Assembly: GCF_963678195.1 (NCBI RefSeq)
Contig: NZ_OY782759.1
Coordinates: forward strand, 310,001-374,000
Reading direction: 5' to 3'
Length of the DNA stretch: 64,000 nucleotides
From: an uncultured Hyphomonas sp.
GTDB taxonomy: Bacteria; Pseudomonadota; Alphaproteobacteria; Caulobacterales; Hyphomonadaceae
The notes under the pieces were generated by a model. The model did not search any database. It saw only the letters and a list, made by a program, of their open reading frames with translations, and was not told where the DNA came from. How positions within the stretch are numbered: the stretch's first letter is position 1; the number at the start of each line of letters is the position of its first letter. A program made the translations under genes and the position numbers. Of the stretch, positions 26,864 to 35,349 are shown in pieces.

Positions 26864-27739
26864 TTAGTCAGCGCCGACGGTCAGGAAGACTTCCGAGGCT
26901 GCCACGGTGAGGGCCGAAACGTCTGCATCCAGCGGATCCGGGCGTGCCGCCGTCGGATACGCTTCGCCGAGCAGGGTGAGCGCGCCGCGAATGGCCTCGG
27001 CCGCATCCGGGTTCTCAGCGGTGATCGCCTCTTCTTCTGAGTCGAACTGGTCCTTCGCGGCGGTGTAGAAACCGTAGCCGTCGAGGTAGGGCTCATAGAA
27101 TTCGGATTCGGTGGAAAGACGGTACATCTTGGTCGAGCGGTCGATCATGTCGGCCACCACGCCGGTGGTGATCGCCTCCGGGGTGGAGCCGTCGTCCGGC
27201 GCCTTTTTCGATGCCGCGCGCAGGGTCGCCACGATTTTCGCGGTGCGTGCATCGATCTCCTCGACACTCTCGCCGGCGAACACGGCGGCGGAGGCGTCCA
27301 GGAACTGGTCTGTGAAATCCGCCACGCCGCGCGCTTCGAACACGGGCTCCATATCGAACAGGACTTCGGACACCGGGTGCGCGAACATTTCGCCAGCGGC
27401 CTCGGTCTCACCGTCGCGATACGCATCGCGGGCGGCCAGAACATGGGCCTCCGCGACGGCGAGCGCGATATTGTAGACGACCGGATCGGTCAGGGCGGCT
27501 TCGATGGCGACACCGCCTTCGCCCTCACCGGAAGCCGCGGCCGGTGCGTTGACGGCTTCCAGCTTTGCTTCCACTTCGGCTTCTGTGGCGGTTGCGTCCG
27601 GCGCAGCGCTGTCGGCGGCTGGCTGTTCAGCGGGCGGGGCGTCCTTTGCGGCGGGCTCGCCACATCCGGCCAGTGCGGTCGTGGTCATGAGGGCGGCACC
27701 GAGGCCGAGATGTGTCCAGCGTTTCTTCTTGATATCCAT
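26864..27739 (-). CDS. Lipoprotein of unknown function
   Basis: A 291-residue exported protein. The start at 27739 gives MDIKKKRWTHLGLGAALMTT and lipobox ALAGC (Cys about 26). A longer upstream frame is antisense to ruvC and is rejected. After an Ala/Pro-rich linker (to about residue 72) there are six or more amphipathic helices, with VVYNIALAVAEAHVLAARDAYRDG near the beginning and a Tyr/Phe-rich segment (EFYEPYLDGYGFYTAAKDQF) in the second half. The pattern recalls imelysin-type helical lipoproteins, but the key motif cannot be seen, so I leave it unnamed. It is divergent from ruvC. Confidence 0.85.
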   Translation of the reverse strand: MDIKKKRWTHLGLGAALMTTTALAGCGEPAAKDAPPAEQPAADSAAPDATATEAEVEAKLEAVNAPAAASGEGEGGVAIEAALTDPVVYNIALAVAEAHVLAARDAYRDGETEAAGEMFAHPVSEVLFDMEPVFEARGVADFTDQFLDASAAVFAGESVEEIDARTAKIVATLRAASKKAPDDGSTPEAITTGVVADMIDRSTKMYRLSTESEFYEPYLDGYGFYTAAKDQFDSEEEAITAENPDAAEAIRGALTLLGEAYPTAARPDPLDADVSALTVAASEVFLTVGAD

Positions 27740-27856
27740 AGCCTTGCGGGGCTCCTTCCGGTCGGGGAAACAGGTCTGCGCTTGTCCTGCCCGAAATGAG
27801 AAGCATTCGCAACTGATATTCCGCCGCGTCTGCAGTCTTTCCGGGGGCAGGGATGT

Positions 27857-27871
27857 GAACAAATCGGGAAA
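27857..27871 (+). promoter_or_regulatory. Near-match to alphaproteobacterial LexA box upstream of ruvC
   Basis: GAAC, 7 nt, GAAA: one base short of GAAC-N7-GAAC, the direct-repeat LexA box of alphaproteobacteria (GTTC-N7-GTTC in the other orientation). It is 42 bp upstream of the ruvC start. RuvCAB is a usual LexA target in this class, so SOS control of the whole operon is plausible. Confidence 0.4.
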
Positions 27872-27913
27872 ATGCAAGGTGTCATTAACCGGCACGCCTG
27901 ATAGGTTGGCAGC

Positions 27914-28417
27914 ATGAGCACCACGATTCGAATCCTCGGTATCGACCCCGGCCTGCGCCATACCGGCTGGGGGGTTATTGAGCTGTCCGGCATGCGTCTG
28001 ACCCATATTGCGCATGGCGTGATCTCGGTCGACCCGAAACAAGAAATGGCCGAGCGCCTTGGCGGTATCTTCGAGGCTGTGGGCGAACTGGCCCGCTATC
28101 ACCAGCCGACTGCCGCCGGCGTGGAGGAGACGCTGGTGAACGCCAACCCGCGTTCGGCGCTGAAGCTCGGCCAGGCGCGCGGCGCAGCCATGGCAGCGCT
28201 GGCCATGGGCGGCATTCCGGTCGCCGAATTTGCGCCCCGCAAGATCAAGCTGGCCGTCGTCGGTACCGGCACGGCGGACAAGGACCAGGTCATGTTCATG
28301 GTGAAGCGCCTCCTGCCCAAGGCGGCGGACCTGAAATCGGACTCTTCCGATGCGCTGGCCTGCGCCATCTGTGCCGCGCACCATCTTCCGGCTGACATGA
28401 AGCGGGGGGCTGCATGA
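27914..28417 (+). CDS. ruvC: Holliday junction endonuclease RuvC
   Basis: Resolves Holliday junctions guided by RuvAB. The catalytic acidic residues can be read in ILGIDPGLRHTGWGV (first Asp), AGVEETLVNANPRSALKLGQ (Glu) and KSDSSDALACAICA (the C-terminal Asp pair). The 167-residue length is standard. A candidate LexA box lies upstream. The stop overlaps ruvA by ATGA, giving a tightly coupled ruvC-ruvA pair. Confidence 0.97.
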   Translation: MSTTIRILGIDPGLRHTGWGVIELSGMRLTHIAHGVISVDPKQEMAERLGGIFEAVGELARYHQPTAAGVEETLVNANPRSALKLGQARGAAMAALAMGGIPVAEFAPRKIKLAVVGTGTADKDQVMFMVKRLLPKAADLKSDSSDALACAICAAHHLPADMKRGAA

Positions 28418-29037
28418 TTATCGGACGCCTTGTCGGCGAGGTCGCAGGCCTCGGCACAGATCATCTGCTCGTGGACGTGAACGGCGTCGGCTATGTCTGC
28501 ATGGCGGGCACGCGGCTGCTCTCGCGCACGCATGCGGGGGAGAAGATTACCGTCCATGTCGAAACGCGGGTGACGGAGAATTCGATCACGCTGTTCGGCT
28601 TCGGCACGGATGAAGAGCGCGCCTGGTTTGTCCGTCTGCAGGATGTCCATGGCGTGGCTGGCAAGGCCGCAATGGCAATCCTCGATGCGATTACGCCAGC
28701 GGAACTGATGGACGCGATTGCGCTGGGCGATGCCAAAGTGCTGGAGCGGGCCAAAGGCGTCGGCAAGAAACTGGCCGAGCGGATTGTACACGATCTCTCC
28801 GGCAAGCCGCCGCCGATGGGACGGTTCGGCAAGTTCGAAGCCGCCAGCGCCGCTGGTATGGCGAGTGCGCCTGTGGCGGCTGCGACGGGCGCGCGGGGCG
28901 AGGCGATCTCCGCGCTGGTCAATCTGGGCTATACGCAAGGCGATGCGGCGCGTGCCGTGGCCAGCATTGCGAAAGATGCCGGTGACGGCGATGTCGGCGT
29001 GCTGGTCAAATCGGCGCTCAAGGAACTCGCGAAATGA
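28414..29037 (+). CDS. ruvA: Holliday junction DNA helicase subunit RuvA
   Basis: DNA-binding subunit that clamps the Holliday junction for RuvB. The N-terminal OB-fold (MIIGRLVGEVAGLGTDHLLVDVNGVGYVC) is followed by helix-hairpin-helix segments (VHGVAGKAAMAILDAI, then AKGVGKKLAERIVHDL). After a flexible linker comes the RuvB-interacting domain III (GEAISALVNLGYTQGDAARAV). The 207-residue length is normal. Its last bases contain AAGGA and the ATGA that starts the inserted DUF4393 gene, where ruvB would normally follow. Confidence 0.97.
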   Translation: MIIGRLVGEVAGLGTDHLLVDVNGVGYVCMAGTRLLSRTHAGEKITVHVETRVTENSITLFGFGTDEERAWFVRLQDVHGVAGKAAMAILDAITPAELMDAIALGDAKVLERAKGVGKKLAERIVHDLSGKPPPMGRFGKFEAASAAGMASAPVAAATGARGEAISALVNLGYTQGDAARAVASIAKDAGDGDVGVLVKSALKELAK

Positions 29038-29831
29038 GTTCAGCAGAACAGTTTGGTGTGCAGGTTGGTTCTGAAGTGGCCAAAGCAGTCGGTGAGGCTG
29101 CCAAGGAAGCCATCACAAATCTTATCGGCCCACCTACCAAAGAAGCGGGAATGCTGGCGGGAGATTTAATCGCTAATTGGAGGGCGGGAAACCTCGTTCG
29201 AATTTACAAGAAGTTTTTGCTGGAGACTGACGGGTTAGAATTGCCTGGAGAAGCGCTCAAGCGGTTGCCGTTTGGTTTCCGTGAATTGATACTGGAGCAA
29301 GGTTCCCGCGAAGATCAGCCTTGTCTTCAGGATGCTTGGGCACGCCTGTTAGCTACATCAGTCGAGCAAGGTTATCTTGAAGCGCACAAGTCCTATGCAA
29401 ATGATATCCAAAGCCTAACTCCGCTTGGAGCATTCATATTGGTTGCAATTAGCAAACAAGGAGGAGCTTCGAGTCCTGACAAGCTAGATACTGAAGTGTT
29501 GCTGACCTCAACTCGAGACTTGGTTGAACGATCTGCGACTGAAGTTGAGGCGGCATTGGCAATACTGCTGAAGTTGGGAATGTTGAACGTGTTTCCTGAC
29601 AAACTGGATAACTGGGATGTCGGCTCGTTAAATGAAAACTTCGGGAATGACGTTGGTGCATTAGCTAACGCAGTCAGACTGATTTTGCTCGATACTGTCG
29701 AGCGCTCCGCTTATGAGCCAACCAAGAAATATCGGACGATAGATTTGAGTGGTCATAAAGTGATGTGGTTTGAAATGTCGTTGTCGCCATATGGTGAAAA
29801 TTTCTATTCAGCATGCATCGAGGAATCATGA
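29034..29831 (+). CDS. DUF4393/Abi-alpha-like protein inserted between ruvA and ruvB
   Basis: A 265-residue soluble alpha/beta protein I place in the Abi-alpha (DUF4393, Pfam PF14337 as recalled) family, named for abortive infection. Visible features are the N-terminal [19 protein letters not shown] helix, [17 protein letters not shown] (about 78-95), [13 protein letters not shown] (about 98-110) and [20 protein letters not shown] (about 121-140). This is the pattern of alternating helices ending in a SPLxxxIL-like motif. Base composition is far from the neighbours: 24 of 60 bases are G or C in 29401-29460, against about two-thirds in ruvB. The start overlaps ruvA and the stop overlaps ruvB, each by ATGA. 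It is probably horizontally acquired; its role in defence is inferred by family and has not been shown for this family. Confidence 0.7.
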
Positions 29832-30856
29832 GCCGCGAGGGTGAACTCTCTGATCCGAACGCACAGGGCGGCGACGCGCTGGACCGGGCGCTCCGCCCTC
29901 AGACGTTTGAGGACTATATCGGCCAGCGCAAGGCGAAGGCGAACCTCAAGGTCTATGTCGATGCGGCCCGCGGGCGCTCCGAGGCGCTGGACCATGTTCT
30001 GCTGTTTGGCCCACCGGGGCTGGGCAAGACGACACTGGCGCAGATCCTGGCCCGGGAAATGGGCGTCGGCTTCCGCGCGACCTCCGGGCCTGTGATTGCC
30101 AAATCGGGGGATCTGGCTGCGATCCTCACGAATCTTGAGCCGAACGATGTTCTGTTCATCGACGAGATCCACCGCCTGCCGCCGGTCGTGGAGGAAATCC
30201 TATATCCTGCGATGGAGGATTATGCCCTCGACATCGTGATCGGGGAGGGGCCGTCGGCCCGCTCCGTACGGCTGGACCTCGCCCCGTTCACACTGGTCGG
30301 CGCCACGACGCGCGCGGGCCTTCTGGCAACGCCGCTGCGCGACCGGTTCGGTATTCCGGTGCGGCTGGAATTCTATGAGCCGGAAGAGCTGGGCCGCATC
30401 GTCATGGCTGCGGCACGCAAGCTAAATGCACAGATCACGGAGGAAGGCGCTGTCGAGATTGCCAGCCGCGCGCGGGGCACGCCGCGGATAGCGTTGCGCC
30501 TGCTGCGCCGGGTGCGCGACTTTGCCGAGGCCGCCGGTGATGCGATCAACCGGGAAAGCGCCGCCAGCGCGCTGAAGCGGCTGGAAATCGACAGCGACGG
30601 CCTCGACGCGCTGGATCGGCGTTACCTGCACGCACTGGTCAAGACCTATGCGGGCGGGCCGGTGGGCGTAGAGACGCTTGCGGCCGCCCTGTCTGAGGCA
30701 CGCGATGCAGTGGAAGACGTGATTGAGCCTTACCTGATGCAGCGCGGCTATGTCGCCCGCACGCCGCGCGGCCGCGTGGCGGCGCCGCTGGCCTATGAGC
30801 GTCTTGGCCTGCCGAATCCCGGTGGCCAGCAATCAGGATTGTTCGGGGAAAAATAA
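29828..30856 (+). CDS. ruvB: Holliday junction DNA helicase motor RuvB
   Basis: AAA+ branch-migration motor. It has Walker [14 protein letters not shown], Walker [13 protein letters not shown], sensor 1 [20 protein letters not shown] and the C-terminal winged helix ([25 protein letters not shown]). I chose the ATG at 29828, which overlaps the stop of the upstream Abi-alpha gene and has GAGGA 3-8 nt upstream (inside that gene). The alternative at 29813 is less likely. About 342 residues, the normal length, so the insertion has not damaged the gene. Confidence 0.97.
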
Positions 30857-30877
30857 GCCGTATAAGGAGAGACCCTG

Positions 30878-31321
30878 ATGATGCGTTCCGATGCCGACTT
30901 CATGAAAGAGGCCTATGCCGAGGCGCAGAAGGGGCTTGAGGAGGGCGGCCTGCCCATCGGCGCCGTCCTTGTGCGCGGCGGCGAGATTATCGGCCGCGGG
31001 CACAATCAACGCGTCCAGAAGGCAGACCCGATCCTGCATGGCGAGATGGCTTGTATGCAGAATGCCGGGCGGCAGGCGAGCTACAGGGACACGGTGATGT
31101 ACACCACCTTGTCGCCCTGCATGATGTGCACCGGCACGATCATCCAGTTCGGCGTGCCCCGCGTGGTCATCGGGGAAAGCGTCAATTTCAAGGGCTTCCA
31201 GGATGTGCTGGTGCTGGCGGGTGTGAAGGTGAAAGACCTGCACCATCCGGCCTGTATCGACATGATGGCAGACTTCATCCGGCAGCATCCGGGCCTGTGG
31301 AATGAAGACATCGGGCATTAG
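30878..31321 (+). CDS. Cytosine deaminase, Fcy1-like zinc enzyme
   Basis: Zinc-dependent hydrolytic deaminase of the cytidine deaminase superfamily. The zinc motif is HGEM (His54, catalytic Glu56) and SPCMMC (Cys81, Cys84). The sequence follows yeast Fcy1 closely by motif: GRGHNQRVQK, then LHGEMACMQNAGR, DTVMYTTLSPCMMCTGTII and a terminal LWNEDIGH. This suggests cytosine deamination to uracil (pyrimidine salvage) rather than guanine or tRNA adenosine deamination. AAGGAG lies 8 nt before the first ATG. It follows ruvB by 21 bp. Confidence 0.88.
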   Translation: MMRSDADFMKEAYAEAQKGLEEGGLPIGAVLVRGGEIIGRGHNQRVQKADPILHGEMACMQNAGRQASYRDTVMYTTLSPCMMCTGTIIQFGVPRVVIGESVNFKGFQDVLVLAGVKVKDLHHPACIDMMADFIRQHPGLWNEDIGH

Positions 31322-33939: not shown

Positions 33940-34371
33940 TCAGGGCAGCATCACGGCGCCGCCTTTCCAGAAGATCGCGATCAGGATGGACGCCGCCGAC
34001 ACGATCAGCGACAGCGCCGCCATGCGGGTGGAGATGCGGAAGCGTTTTGTGTCTTCCTGCAGATCGGCCAGCACGCTGGCCAGCAGGGGGAAGTTCACGC
34101 AGTGGCGGTCGCCCCCGATGCGCAGGCTGAACACATTCACACTGTCGCCATCGCCGGTGTGCGAGCCGTATCTGGCATTCATGTGATAATAGAGCCGGCC
34201 GAAGATCAGGTCCGGGTCACAGCGGAAGCGTTTTGCCAGCATGTCGATATCAATCGGCACCCAGATCTTTGTGGAGCGGGTCTTGGTCTCGTCGGAGAAG
34301 TCAGAGAATTCGCGGTCATAGCGCCGGTAGATCTCCGTCAGCAGGCGCTCATCTGTCGGAATCTTCGCCAT
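33940..34371 (-). CDS. Hypothetical protein with C-terminal membrane helix
   Basis: A 143-residue protein. The start at 34371 has GGGAG 4-9 nt upstream. The soluble N-terminal part (KIPTDERLLTEIYRRYDREFSDFSDE, then IDIDMLAKRFRCDPDLIFGRLYYHMNARYG) resembles a helical domain with a short winged segment. Then come RIGGDRHCVNFPLLASVL and a C-terminal helix (AALSLIVSAASILIAIFW) that would place the N-terminus in the cytoplasm. I do not recognise a family. It is divergent from the PadR cassette. Confidence 0.7.
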   Translation of the reverse strand: MAKIPTDERLLTEIYRRYDREFSDFSDETKTRSTKIWVPIDIDMLAKRFRCDPDLIFGRLYYHMNARYGSHTGDGDSVNVFSLRIGGDRHCVNFPLLASVLADLQEDTKRFRISTRMAALSLIVSAASILIAIFWKGGAVMLP

Positions 34372-34449
34372 CGGTCTCCCCTCCGCTGGGCTGTACGCAG
34401 AGGATGGCAGGGGAGGGGAGAGGGCAAGGGAACCAATTTGTTGAATCGC

Positions 34450-34482
34450 TTGCGGTTGAGTCTTACTTGTTGTAAGATTCAA
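34450..34482 (+). promoter_or_regulatory. Promoter with overlapping inverted repeat for the PadR cassette
   Basis: TTGCGG (34450-34455), a 17-nt spacer and TAAGAT (34473-34478) form a good promoter. TTGAGTCTTAC (34456-34466) and GTAAGATTCAA (34472-34482) match as an inverted repeat at 10 of 11 positions with a 5-nt loop. They cover the spacer and -10 box, an ideal autorepressor site for the downstream PadR-like protein. Confidence 0.6.
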
Positions 34483-34501
34483 AAAATTGCTGGTGCAGTC
34501 T

Positions 34502-34813
34502 ATGAAAAACATCCCGAGAATATCCCCGAAAGAGCGCGTAGTTCTGGACTTGTTGATCACAAACGGCGAGCTTTACGGGTTAGAGATTGTTAAAAAATCT
34601 AGCGAGATAAAGCGGGGCGCTGTGTACGTTATGCTCTCAAGGATGGTTGAAAAGGGATTGGTCGCAGTTCGTGTACCGATGGACCAAAATTTACCCGGTA
34701 AACCTCGACCGAGATACAGCATAACGGGCTATGGTCAGCGCGTGTTAAGCGCACACGATAGCTTTGGATGCCAAGTCGCATTTAACACTCAAAATGTTGG
34801 GTGGAGCGCATGA
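34502..34813 (+). CDS. PadR-like winged-helix transcriptional regulator
   Basis: A 103-residue DNA-binding protein. The winged helix is at about residues 6-75: SPKERVVLDLLITNGELYGLEIV, then KRGAVYVMLSRMVEKGLVA and GKPRPRYSITGYGQRVL. This is the minimal PadR domain without a long C-terminal dimerisation arm. The promoter overlaps a strong inverted repeat, suggesting autorepression. The low GC content sets it apart from its flanks. The stop overlaps the next gene by ATGA. Confidence 0.82.
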   Translation: MKNIPRISPKERVVLDLLITNGELYGLEIVKKSSEIKRGAVYVMLSRMVEKGLVAVRVPMDQNLPGKPRPRYSITGYGQRVLSAHDSFGCQVAFNTQNVGWSA

Positions 34814-35349
34814 CCAATAAAGGGCCAACTAAAGAGCTACGCGAAATTCTGGAAGAGATGGGGACATCCTCAGCTTTTTCGAATAAAAAAAATCCTTTAT
34901 ATAAAGATTTTTTTGAATTGCTTTCGCTGATGGAAGCTAGACAAAAGGTTAAGCATGCTAAGGCGATCATCGCCGATGAAACTATAAAAATTGAAGCGCA
35001 AAACAAGACCGGTCAGGAACAAAAAGAGTACTTCCAGTGGCCATATCCCGCCGCGCCTGCGGTAGGGCGTGGGAATAAGCGGCGTCCACGGAGTAAAATA
35101 GTCCGTCCGCCGGGCTTTGGGCTTCTGCGGTTCTCAGAGATCATTTTTTCCAAGAAATTTCGAGAAGCAATTCTTGAGCCAACCATAACTGATATGCAAG
35201 TGGAACACCTCGAGGCCCTTTCTAACGGGAGGGTTTACTTCGCCCGCTGGGTCATGATTAGGGGTTACCTTTCCTACGGCAACGCTTTACTTGCGTCGGT
35301 GCCGGCTGCGATTGCTAAGCGCATATGGGAAGCTTGGCGAGCAAGTTGA
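34810..35349 (+). CDS. Unknown protein of the PadR cassette
   Basis: A 179-residue protein translated from an ATGA overlap with the regulator. Base composition is unusually AT-rich (16 of 60 bases are G or C in 34861-34920). The N-terminal half is charged and probably helical (TKELREILEEMG, then LSLMEARQKVKHAKAIIADE). A basic stretch follows (GRGNKRRPRSKIVRPPG). The C-terminal part (EPTITDMQVEHLEAL, then YFARWVMIRGYLSYGNALLASVPAAIAKRIWEAW) may be membrane-associated. I know of no characterised family. The compact regulator-partner unit looks like a small horizontally moved module. Confidence 0.75.
   Translation: MTNKGPTKELREILEEMGTSSAFSNKKNPLYKDFFELLSLMEARQKVKHAKAIIADETIKIEAQNKTGQEQKEYFQWPYPAAPAVGRGNKRRPRSKIVRPPGFGLLRFSEIIFSKKFREAILEPTITDMQVEHLEALSNGRVYFARWVMIRGYLSYGNALLASVPAAIAKRIWEAWRAS

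Follow-up and report, generated by a model that had tools for sequence, protein, structure and literature searches.

We propose that a horizontally acquired, mobile gene of the Abi_alpha (DUF4393) type has landed in the joint between ruvA and ruvB of an uncultured Hyphomonas sp., and that this joint, across the bacterial order to which the organism belongs, would accept foreign DNA if the reading frame is kept. The gene lies in the window, the whole 64,000-nucleotide stretch of DNA that was analysed. RuvA and RuvB work as one machine, and between their genes lies an ATGA overlap, a type of junction at which translation is coupled through termination and reinitiation; for this reason inserts would survive mainly as an open "relay" frame that runs from the ruvA stop to the ruvB start and hands the ribosomes on. 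Expression of the Abi_alpha protein would start at the ruvC promoter, probably with LexA in control, and its amount would follow that of RuvAB; the protein likely acts by Abi-alpha-type abortive infection, in which the infected cell dies or lyses early. Taken whole, we consider this model the best explanation of the observations and a probable one.

The ruvA and ruvB genes of the window are separated by a single plus-strand gene of 265 amino acids that begins with ATG and has a 4-nt ATGA in common with each neighbour (Table 1). It is the only thing that stands between the two genes, and its setting is a chromosomal ruvCAB operon rather than a prophage or mobile element. A preliminary description of this DNA had reported a low-GC gene of this length with ATGA overlaps at both edges, and renewed inspection confirms all of it, down to the exact count of 24 G or C among the 60 bases at 29401-29460. 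The GC content of the insert, 47.5% (GC3 0.455), compares with 0.625 for the window and with 64-66% for the neighbouring genes (GC/GC3 of 0.655/0.786 for ruvC, 0.641/0.736 for ruvA and 0.663/0.770 for ruvB). An open frame with both overlaps was recovered in none of 600 dinucleotide shuffles of the insert in random frame; the double-overlap open frame is not a product of chance. No Rfam match at the gathering score is present in 27700-31000. The list of open reading frames also offers an alternative in-frame ATG for ruvB further upstream, at 29813, within the insert. Elsewhere in the window the lowest GC, 0.46-0.48 in 798-bp steps and slightly below that of the inserted gene, is found at 34201-35349, around an ORF (34487-34813) that we take to resemble a PadR-type winged-helix protein.

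Table 1. Features of the interrupted ruvCAB operon, in window coordinates.
Feature	Coordinates	Strand	Description
LexA-box-like motif	27857..27871	-	GAAC-N7-GAAA on + strand; 43-57 bp upstream of ruvC start
ruvC	27914..28417	+	167 aa; ATGA overlap with ruvA at 28414-28417
ruvA	28414..29037	+	207 aa; Pfam RuvA_N, HHH_5, RuvA_C
left ATGA	29034..29037	+	ruvA stop / insert start
Abi_alpha (DUF4393) family insert	29034..29831	+	265 aa; Pfam PF14337; GC 0.475; in 1 of 42 genus genomes
right ATGA	29828..29831	+	insert TGA stop / ruvB start
ruvB	29828..30856	+	342 aa; Pfam RuvB_N, AAA_lid_4, RuvB_C

By profile the insert is a member of the Abi_alpha family, a resemblance that the preliminary description had proposed. 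Residues 66-261 match PF14337 (Abi_alpha/DUF4393) over profile positions 15-196 of 196, with E=1.2e-10 and 42.2 bits against a Pfam cut-off of 29. NCBIfam profiles gave no match to the insert, while PADLOC returned a weak match to PDC-S47 (E=0.0014, 16.4 bits, residues 96-143 only), another weak one to a second PDC-S47 model (E=0.016), and PHROGs a weak match (E=0.01) to a family of unknown function. Phage and plasmid collections searched with the window protein yielded no match at 1e-5, and the scans for related loci and DNA searches no relative of the insert. The AlphaFold model of the insert alone has a pLDDT of 37.7 and was set aside. A 12-sequence profile, built from the insert and 11 relatives, gave three matches among PDB sequences (E=0.4 to 1.5); one of these, 3h35 (E=0.76), is also named in the available text of the Abi-alpha paper (PMC6356687).

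The prototype of the family as presented in that text is EF2833 of Enterococcus faecalis V583 prophage 6, a protein of 272 aa in whose presence phage adsorbs, infective centres drop to about 10% and the cells die, with lysis about 10 min early during the abortive infection (PMC6356687). The window protein is close to it in length (265 against 272 aa) and falls in the same Pfam family above the cut-off, and the shared Pfam profile is the basis on which we liken the two; like the insert, EF2833 is a single gene, and it is enough for the phenotype. EF2833 differs in lying in a prophage with its own mapped promoter, whereas the window gene has its start within the stop of ruvA, in a housekeeping operon. 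Since the published survey, in the same available text, includes chromosomal Abi_alpha copies as well (PMC6356687), a prophage or mobile setting, though usual among relatives of the prototype, is not a strict criterion for the family. We judge the chances that the insert has its putative phage-defence activity to be about even.

PF14337 is sporadic across the order, with a match in 13 of 398 genomes, and five of the 398, the window genome included, are found when the window protein is the sole query. Besides the window there are 12 Abi_alpha loci in the order. Seven have a gene of lower GC than its surroundings (L077-L081, L083, L084), and five have a GC like that of their surroundings (L072-L076); the latter are from the window genome's taxonomic family, G012 and G027 also from its genus. 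The subfamily formed by L072-L076 (E of 1e-31 to 1e-38), some members of which share neighbour genes by eye, looks resident rather than mobile. Identity of the window protein to 11 aligned relatives, taken from the 12 other loci with L073 left out, is only 15-25%. Three Vibrio filamentous-phage records carry homologues of the L078 protein, with DUF4393 noted in the one inspected. A further homologue is found on a conjugative plasmid of Pseudomonas, where its neighbours are a methylase, a helicase and a GIY-YIG gene. The family thus has a setting that is partly mobile and defence-like.

Within the genus the protein is confined to one of 42 genomes, that of the window (G000). On a RuvA+RuvB tree this genome is one tip in a group of eight, all other members of which have an empty joint, and two close relatives, G020 and G041, show an uninterrupted ATGAGCC at this point. 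One recent gain is the simplest reading, the low GC remarked on in the preliminary description amounting to a foreign composition. That the genus operon instead had the gene from the start, and every other species lost it, is conceivable and has nothing beyond that in its favour; absence from 41 of the 42 genomes, the foreign composition and the finding that elsewhere the same point is empty or holds different inserts make it extremely improbable.

The ruvA-ruvB joint looks like a recurrent docking place that is filtered for unbroken translational coupling, and we hold with good confidence that the window gene was acquired into such a joint. Among the 39 genus joints with ruvA and ruvB on one contig, 31 are direct ATGA/GTGA overlaps and eight are filled, seven of these with both overlaps kept. 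A sample of 57 loci from the rest of the order comprises 31 direct overlaps, 12 inserts with both overlaps and 14 other arrangements, with an insert of at least 50 bp at 22 of the 57 ruvA-ruvB joints. The ruvC-ruvA joint of the same loci provides a matched control. For genus and order together, inserts of at least 50 bp are present at 30/96 ruvA-ruvB joints against 6/92 ruvC-ruvA joints (Fisher P=1.3e-5), and such census P values are optimistic, as the counts come from related genomes, are non-independent and are thereby inflated; in the genus alone the difference (8/39 against 3/39, P=0.19) is not significant. Adding G062, G087 and G089 changes the counts to 32/99 and 7/94. Genus and order together show what defines an insertion hotspot, namely one point that receives varied cargo in several lineages and does so above its matched point. 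To speak of inserts is to assume that the direct overlap came first, and some of the non-coupled inserts may be old spacers and not inserts.

The genus rows omit G016 (neither gene found), G021 (no ruvB) and G034 (genes on different contigs). A true lack of ruvB in G021 was considered and rejected, as the contig match ends inside ruvA near the end of the locus, which is likely a matter of assembly. In G013 (L013) the RuvA match comes in two overlapping pieces, seemingly in different frames, as if frameshifted or mis-sequenced. From the rest of the taxonomic family only G062, G087 and G089 enter the census; they were picked for their inserts or as an empty neighbour and are excluded from the genus and order rates quoted above. 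Among the 17 family stretches (L043-L059), coordinates put ruvA and ruvB about 1.8-5 kb apart in the 12 from g10, g5 and g8, which are unclassed; in those of the 12 viewed whole, opposite-strand ORFs take up much of the space. G092 and G104, with ruvA and ruvB on different contigs, are likewise unclassed, the joints of g3 and g7 were judged empty by coordinates alone, except that of G062, and in g4 the genes lie apart. The order sample was drawn from 127 searched order genomes outside the family as 60 stretches of other families, in handle order from G105 to G169, with five genomes skipped whose ruvB row was unlisted; three of the 60 had no ruvA within 2.5 kb, leaving the 57.

The cargo of these joints is diverse. 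Filled genus joints hold the Abi_alpha gene of the window, proteins of 158 aa (i158, G014) and 159 aa (i159, G022), a 110-aa protein in the three-genome clade of G004, G008 and G030, a repeat-like insert in G024 (about 190 bp) and a shorter insert in G023 (about 75 bp). The i158 and i159 proteins are 46% identical, their genes are low in GC, and their carriers stand far apart on the ruvA+ruvB tree; the family was found in two of 105 genomes of the taxonomic family, both times at the ruvA-ruvB joint. A survey of 385 genomes from the class gave distant relatives of i158 in two, and no ruvA, ruvB or ruvC lies within 1.5 kb of either. One distant relative (L115, G717) lies near an opposite-strand low-GC ORF, and another, on a conjugative plasmid of Burkholderia glumae (NZ_CP100184, L071), near a ChpB-type toxin-antitoxin pair and integrases. 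In G089, from another genus of the family, a low-GC insert of 0.9 kb lies between two copies of ATGAG, and the joint of its neighbour G087 is empty. The order sample adds metallo-beta-lactamase-fold proteins (L122, L167), FtsH-extracellular-like proteins above the Pfam cut-off in L171 and below it in L161, and, on the opposite strand, a YCII protein and an ACP synthase III at the joints of L157 and L166. The L161 and L171 proteins, of 191 and 163 residues, have a hydrophobic stretch and no ATPase match.

Recognised cargo is mostly not defence. A PADLOC search of 15 ORFs from the inserts of other genomes, at chosen loci, left 14 with no match at E limits of 1 (six ORFs) or 0.01 (nine ORFs), and an insert ORF of L010 gave a 37-residue match to Cas5b at E=0.012. 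A defence hotspot or island was also considered for the joint and rejected, the scanned cargo of the other inserts having hardly any defence match. The control joint has cargo of its own: a low-GC (0.46), 320-residue gene of the GDPD family lies with both overlaps between ruvC and ruvA of L149 (G138), and this other joint is therefore usable too. Counting the family row L044 there are seven ruvC-ruvA inserts, of which five have the double overlap, three of them being one 113-bp repeat in a single six-genome clade. This repeat is palindromic and supplies a 38-codon frame with both overlaps (L014, L016, L030); it is present in G006, G004 and G031 and absent from G008 and G030, the sisters of G004.

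Such recurrence at one point could also be the work of a site-specific element, a mobile gene with the ATGA joint as its target, of which it would duplicate 4-6 bp. The window insert is indeed flanked by direct repeats of ATGAG, as is L043, and the i158/i159 genes, of the same family, occupy one and the same joint in two species that are far apart; selection for both genes, however, also demands an ATGA at either edge, and the i158 homologues found outside the family are not at ruvAB. Few sequences are common to the inserts, no inverted repeat of at least 10 nt surrounds the window insert, and no convincing recombinase match appeared among the insert ORFs scanned, a 70-aa ORF of L043 reaching E=0.08 to an excisionase family and E=0.025 to HTH_17. 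We consider a site-specific element very improbable.

The filter for coupling is most apparent in short inserts, defined as those under 220 bp, which need not be coding. In genus and order together, 10 of 14 keep both overlaps and an uninterrupted frame all the way from ruvA stop to ruvB start, where random-frame shuffles give an expectation of 2.35 of 14 (tail 6.6e-6); with the family rows included the figures are 11 of 15 against 2.4. Inverted arms of 12-24 bp were seen in 10 of the 14, as a raw count, and these inserts look repeat-like. Most of the short inserts look to be separate events when their sequences are compared, nine of the 14 having nothing in common with another short insert and the other five sharing pieces in two groups (L028/L038 and L128/L146/L170). 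Gene-sized inserts on the same strand have the double overlap in seven of 11 hand-made groups, a weak excess (P=0.04 at 1/3). Coupling on both sides is absent from 11 of the 30 filled ruvA-ruvB joints of genus and order, which comprise short inserts (L038, L134, L146, L158), same-strand genes (L123, L151, L161, L171) and joints with opposite-strand ORFs (L145, L157, L166); L043, from the family, is not coupled either.

According to the available text of PMC10666635, reinitiation is almost lost when some 20 nt separate two genes, and heteromeric complexes are enriched in short gene overlaps, which would account for the excess of double-overlap relay frames. Strict coupling was found in 13 of 14 overlapping pairs tested, as reported in the available text of PMC6728339, and the ruvC-ruvA-ruvB joints are 4-nt overlaps like those treated in these two papers. 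The retention of inserts and repeats as relay frames between coupled genes comes from the present analysis and does not appear in the available text of either (PMC6728339, PMC10666635). We infer that ribosomes are relayed through the inserts, and we think it fairly likely that the window protein is, as predicted, made together with RuvAB.

The main rival to our model is a neutral passenger, that is, a foreign ORF that arrived by illegitimate recombination and persists only because it leaves ruvB expression unbroken, with no benefit to the cell. It is consistent with the position of the insert on a single tip of the genus tree and with the readiness of the joint to take short, often palindromic DNA and genes without defence matches. 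The 265-codon frame is nevertheless intact and Abi_alpha still recognisable in it, a point tempered by the foreign GC, as the gene may be too young to have decayed. On balance we think a neutral passenger unlikely, though it deserves to be weighed seriously, and we prefer the relayed, acquired Abi_alpha gene.

Expression of that gene would depend on the region upstream of ruvC, which reads GAACAAATCGGGAAA. The LexA-box-like motif there has one mismatch to GTTCN7GTTC. Matches of this quality are no commoner in the window than chance (30 found against 43 expected), so the LexA-like case rests on position and conservation. The pattern GAACN7GAA[AT] is present upstream of ruvC in all 36 genus genomes that have at least 80 bp of upstream DNA, G008 and G030 having too little to be counted, and GAACN7GAAC is found, in either orientation, at 30 of 30 genus lexA loci, a form from which the ruvC motif differs in its last base. 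In the wider family, a perfect GTTCN7GTTC lies upstream of ruvC in 11 of the 12 loci with ruvC in view (L045-L056), the exception being L056. This conserved motif makes it plausible that the operon, and the inserted gene with it, is SOS-controlled; it suggests SOS-linked expression of ruvCAB and insert via a candidate LexA box, and we lean slightly towards the predicted control by LexA. No sigma-70-like promoter site was detected in 28414-29900, where only 0.9 would be expected by chance, and this says little.

The preliminary description had tied expression of the gene to Holliday-junction processing and had seen in its place a special link between defence and repair. The first of these stands in part: the LexA-like site in 36 of 36 genus genomes speaks for expression under DNA-damage control, while a link to Holliday junctions finds no support beyond the predicted co-expression. 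The second fares worse, as the other inserts at the joint lack a convincing defence match among those scanned and none of the 12 other Abi_alpha loci of the order has ruvA, ruvB or ruvC within 1.5 kb; a permissive joint together with selection for translational coupling explains the place of the insert better. The same absence of ruv genes bears on the earlier proposal that the protein is a sentinel, watching RuvAB or recombination intermediates and triggering death upon phage interference. Some other defence systems do guard recombination enzymes, and the predicted co-translation with RuvAB and the LexA-like site would suit such a role; the joint takes other cargo, however, so that position alone is uninformative on function, and we regard a sentinel as very unlikely.

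Price, Arkin and Alm reportedly described in 2006 new genes inserted into existing operons, and a horizontally acquired gene inside a conserved operon is what the window has in common with that work; what the present case adds is a single joint used again and again, with double-overlap frames in excess. A second parallel is the rulAB UV-repair operon, a hotspot for integron-like elements in Pseudomonas according to the available text of PMC4542609, in that both repair operons repeatedly receive accessory genes. The rulAB elements bear a recombinase, measure 9-16 kb and interrupt rulB (PMC4542609), whereas the ruvA-ruvB inserts are mostly single frames with no convincing recombinase match and leave both genes whole. 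Among the matches listed in the open-access literature, at the level of titles and the beginnings of abstracts, there was no description of gene inserts at ruvA/ruvB or at coupled operon joints.

A bolder extension of the model, which we offer as doubtful, is that coupled joints such as ruvA-ruvB act as a trap that retains landed DNA mainly as relay frames. Palindromic repeats would there become translated bridge ORFs, and a trapped defence gene would be co-translated with a repair machine under a LexA switch; its loss would be difficult, since coupling comes back only with an exact deletion. Abi_alpha might in that case be a damage-licensed suicide gene with its dose fixed to RuvAB.

These findings carry a warning that functional linkage is not to be read from such positions. 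They also indicate that accessory genes, a likely phage-defence gene included, need not bring promoters with them: docking in a housekeeping joint could be enough for their expression. Finally, inserts that are apparently separate, of different origins and seemingly filtered for frame offer a natural experiment on the strength of the constraint that ATGA coupling places on operons.
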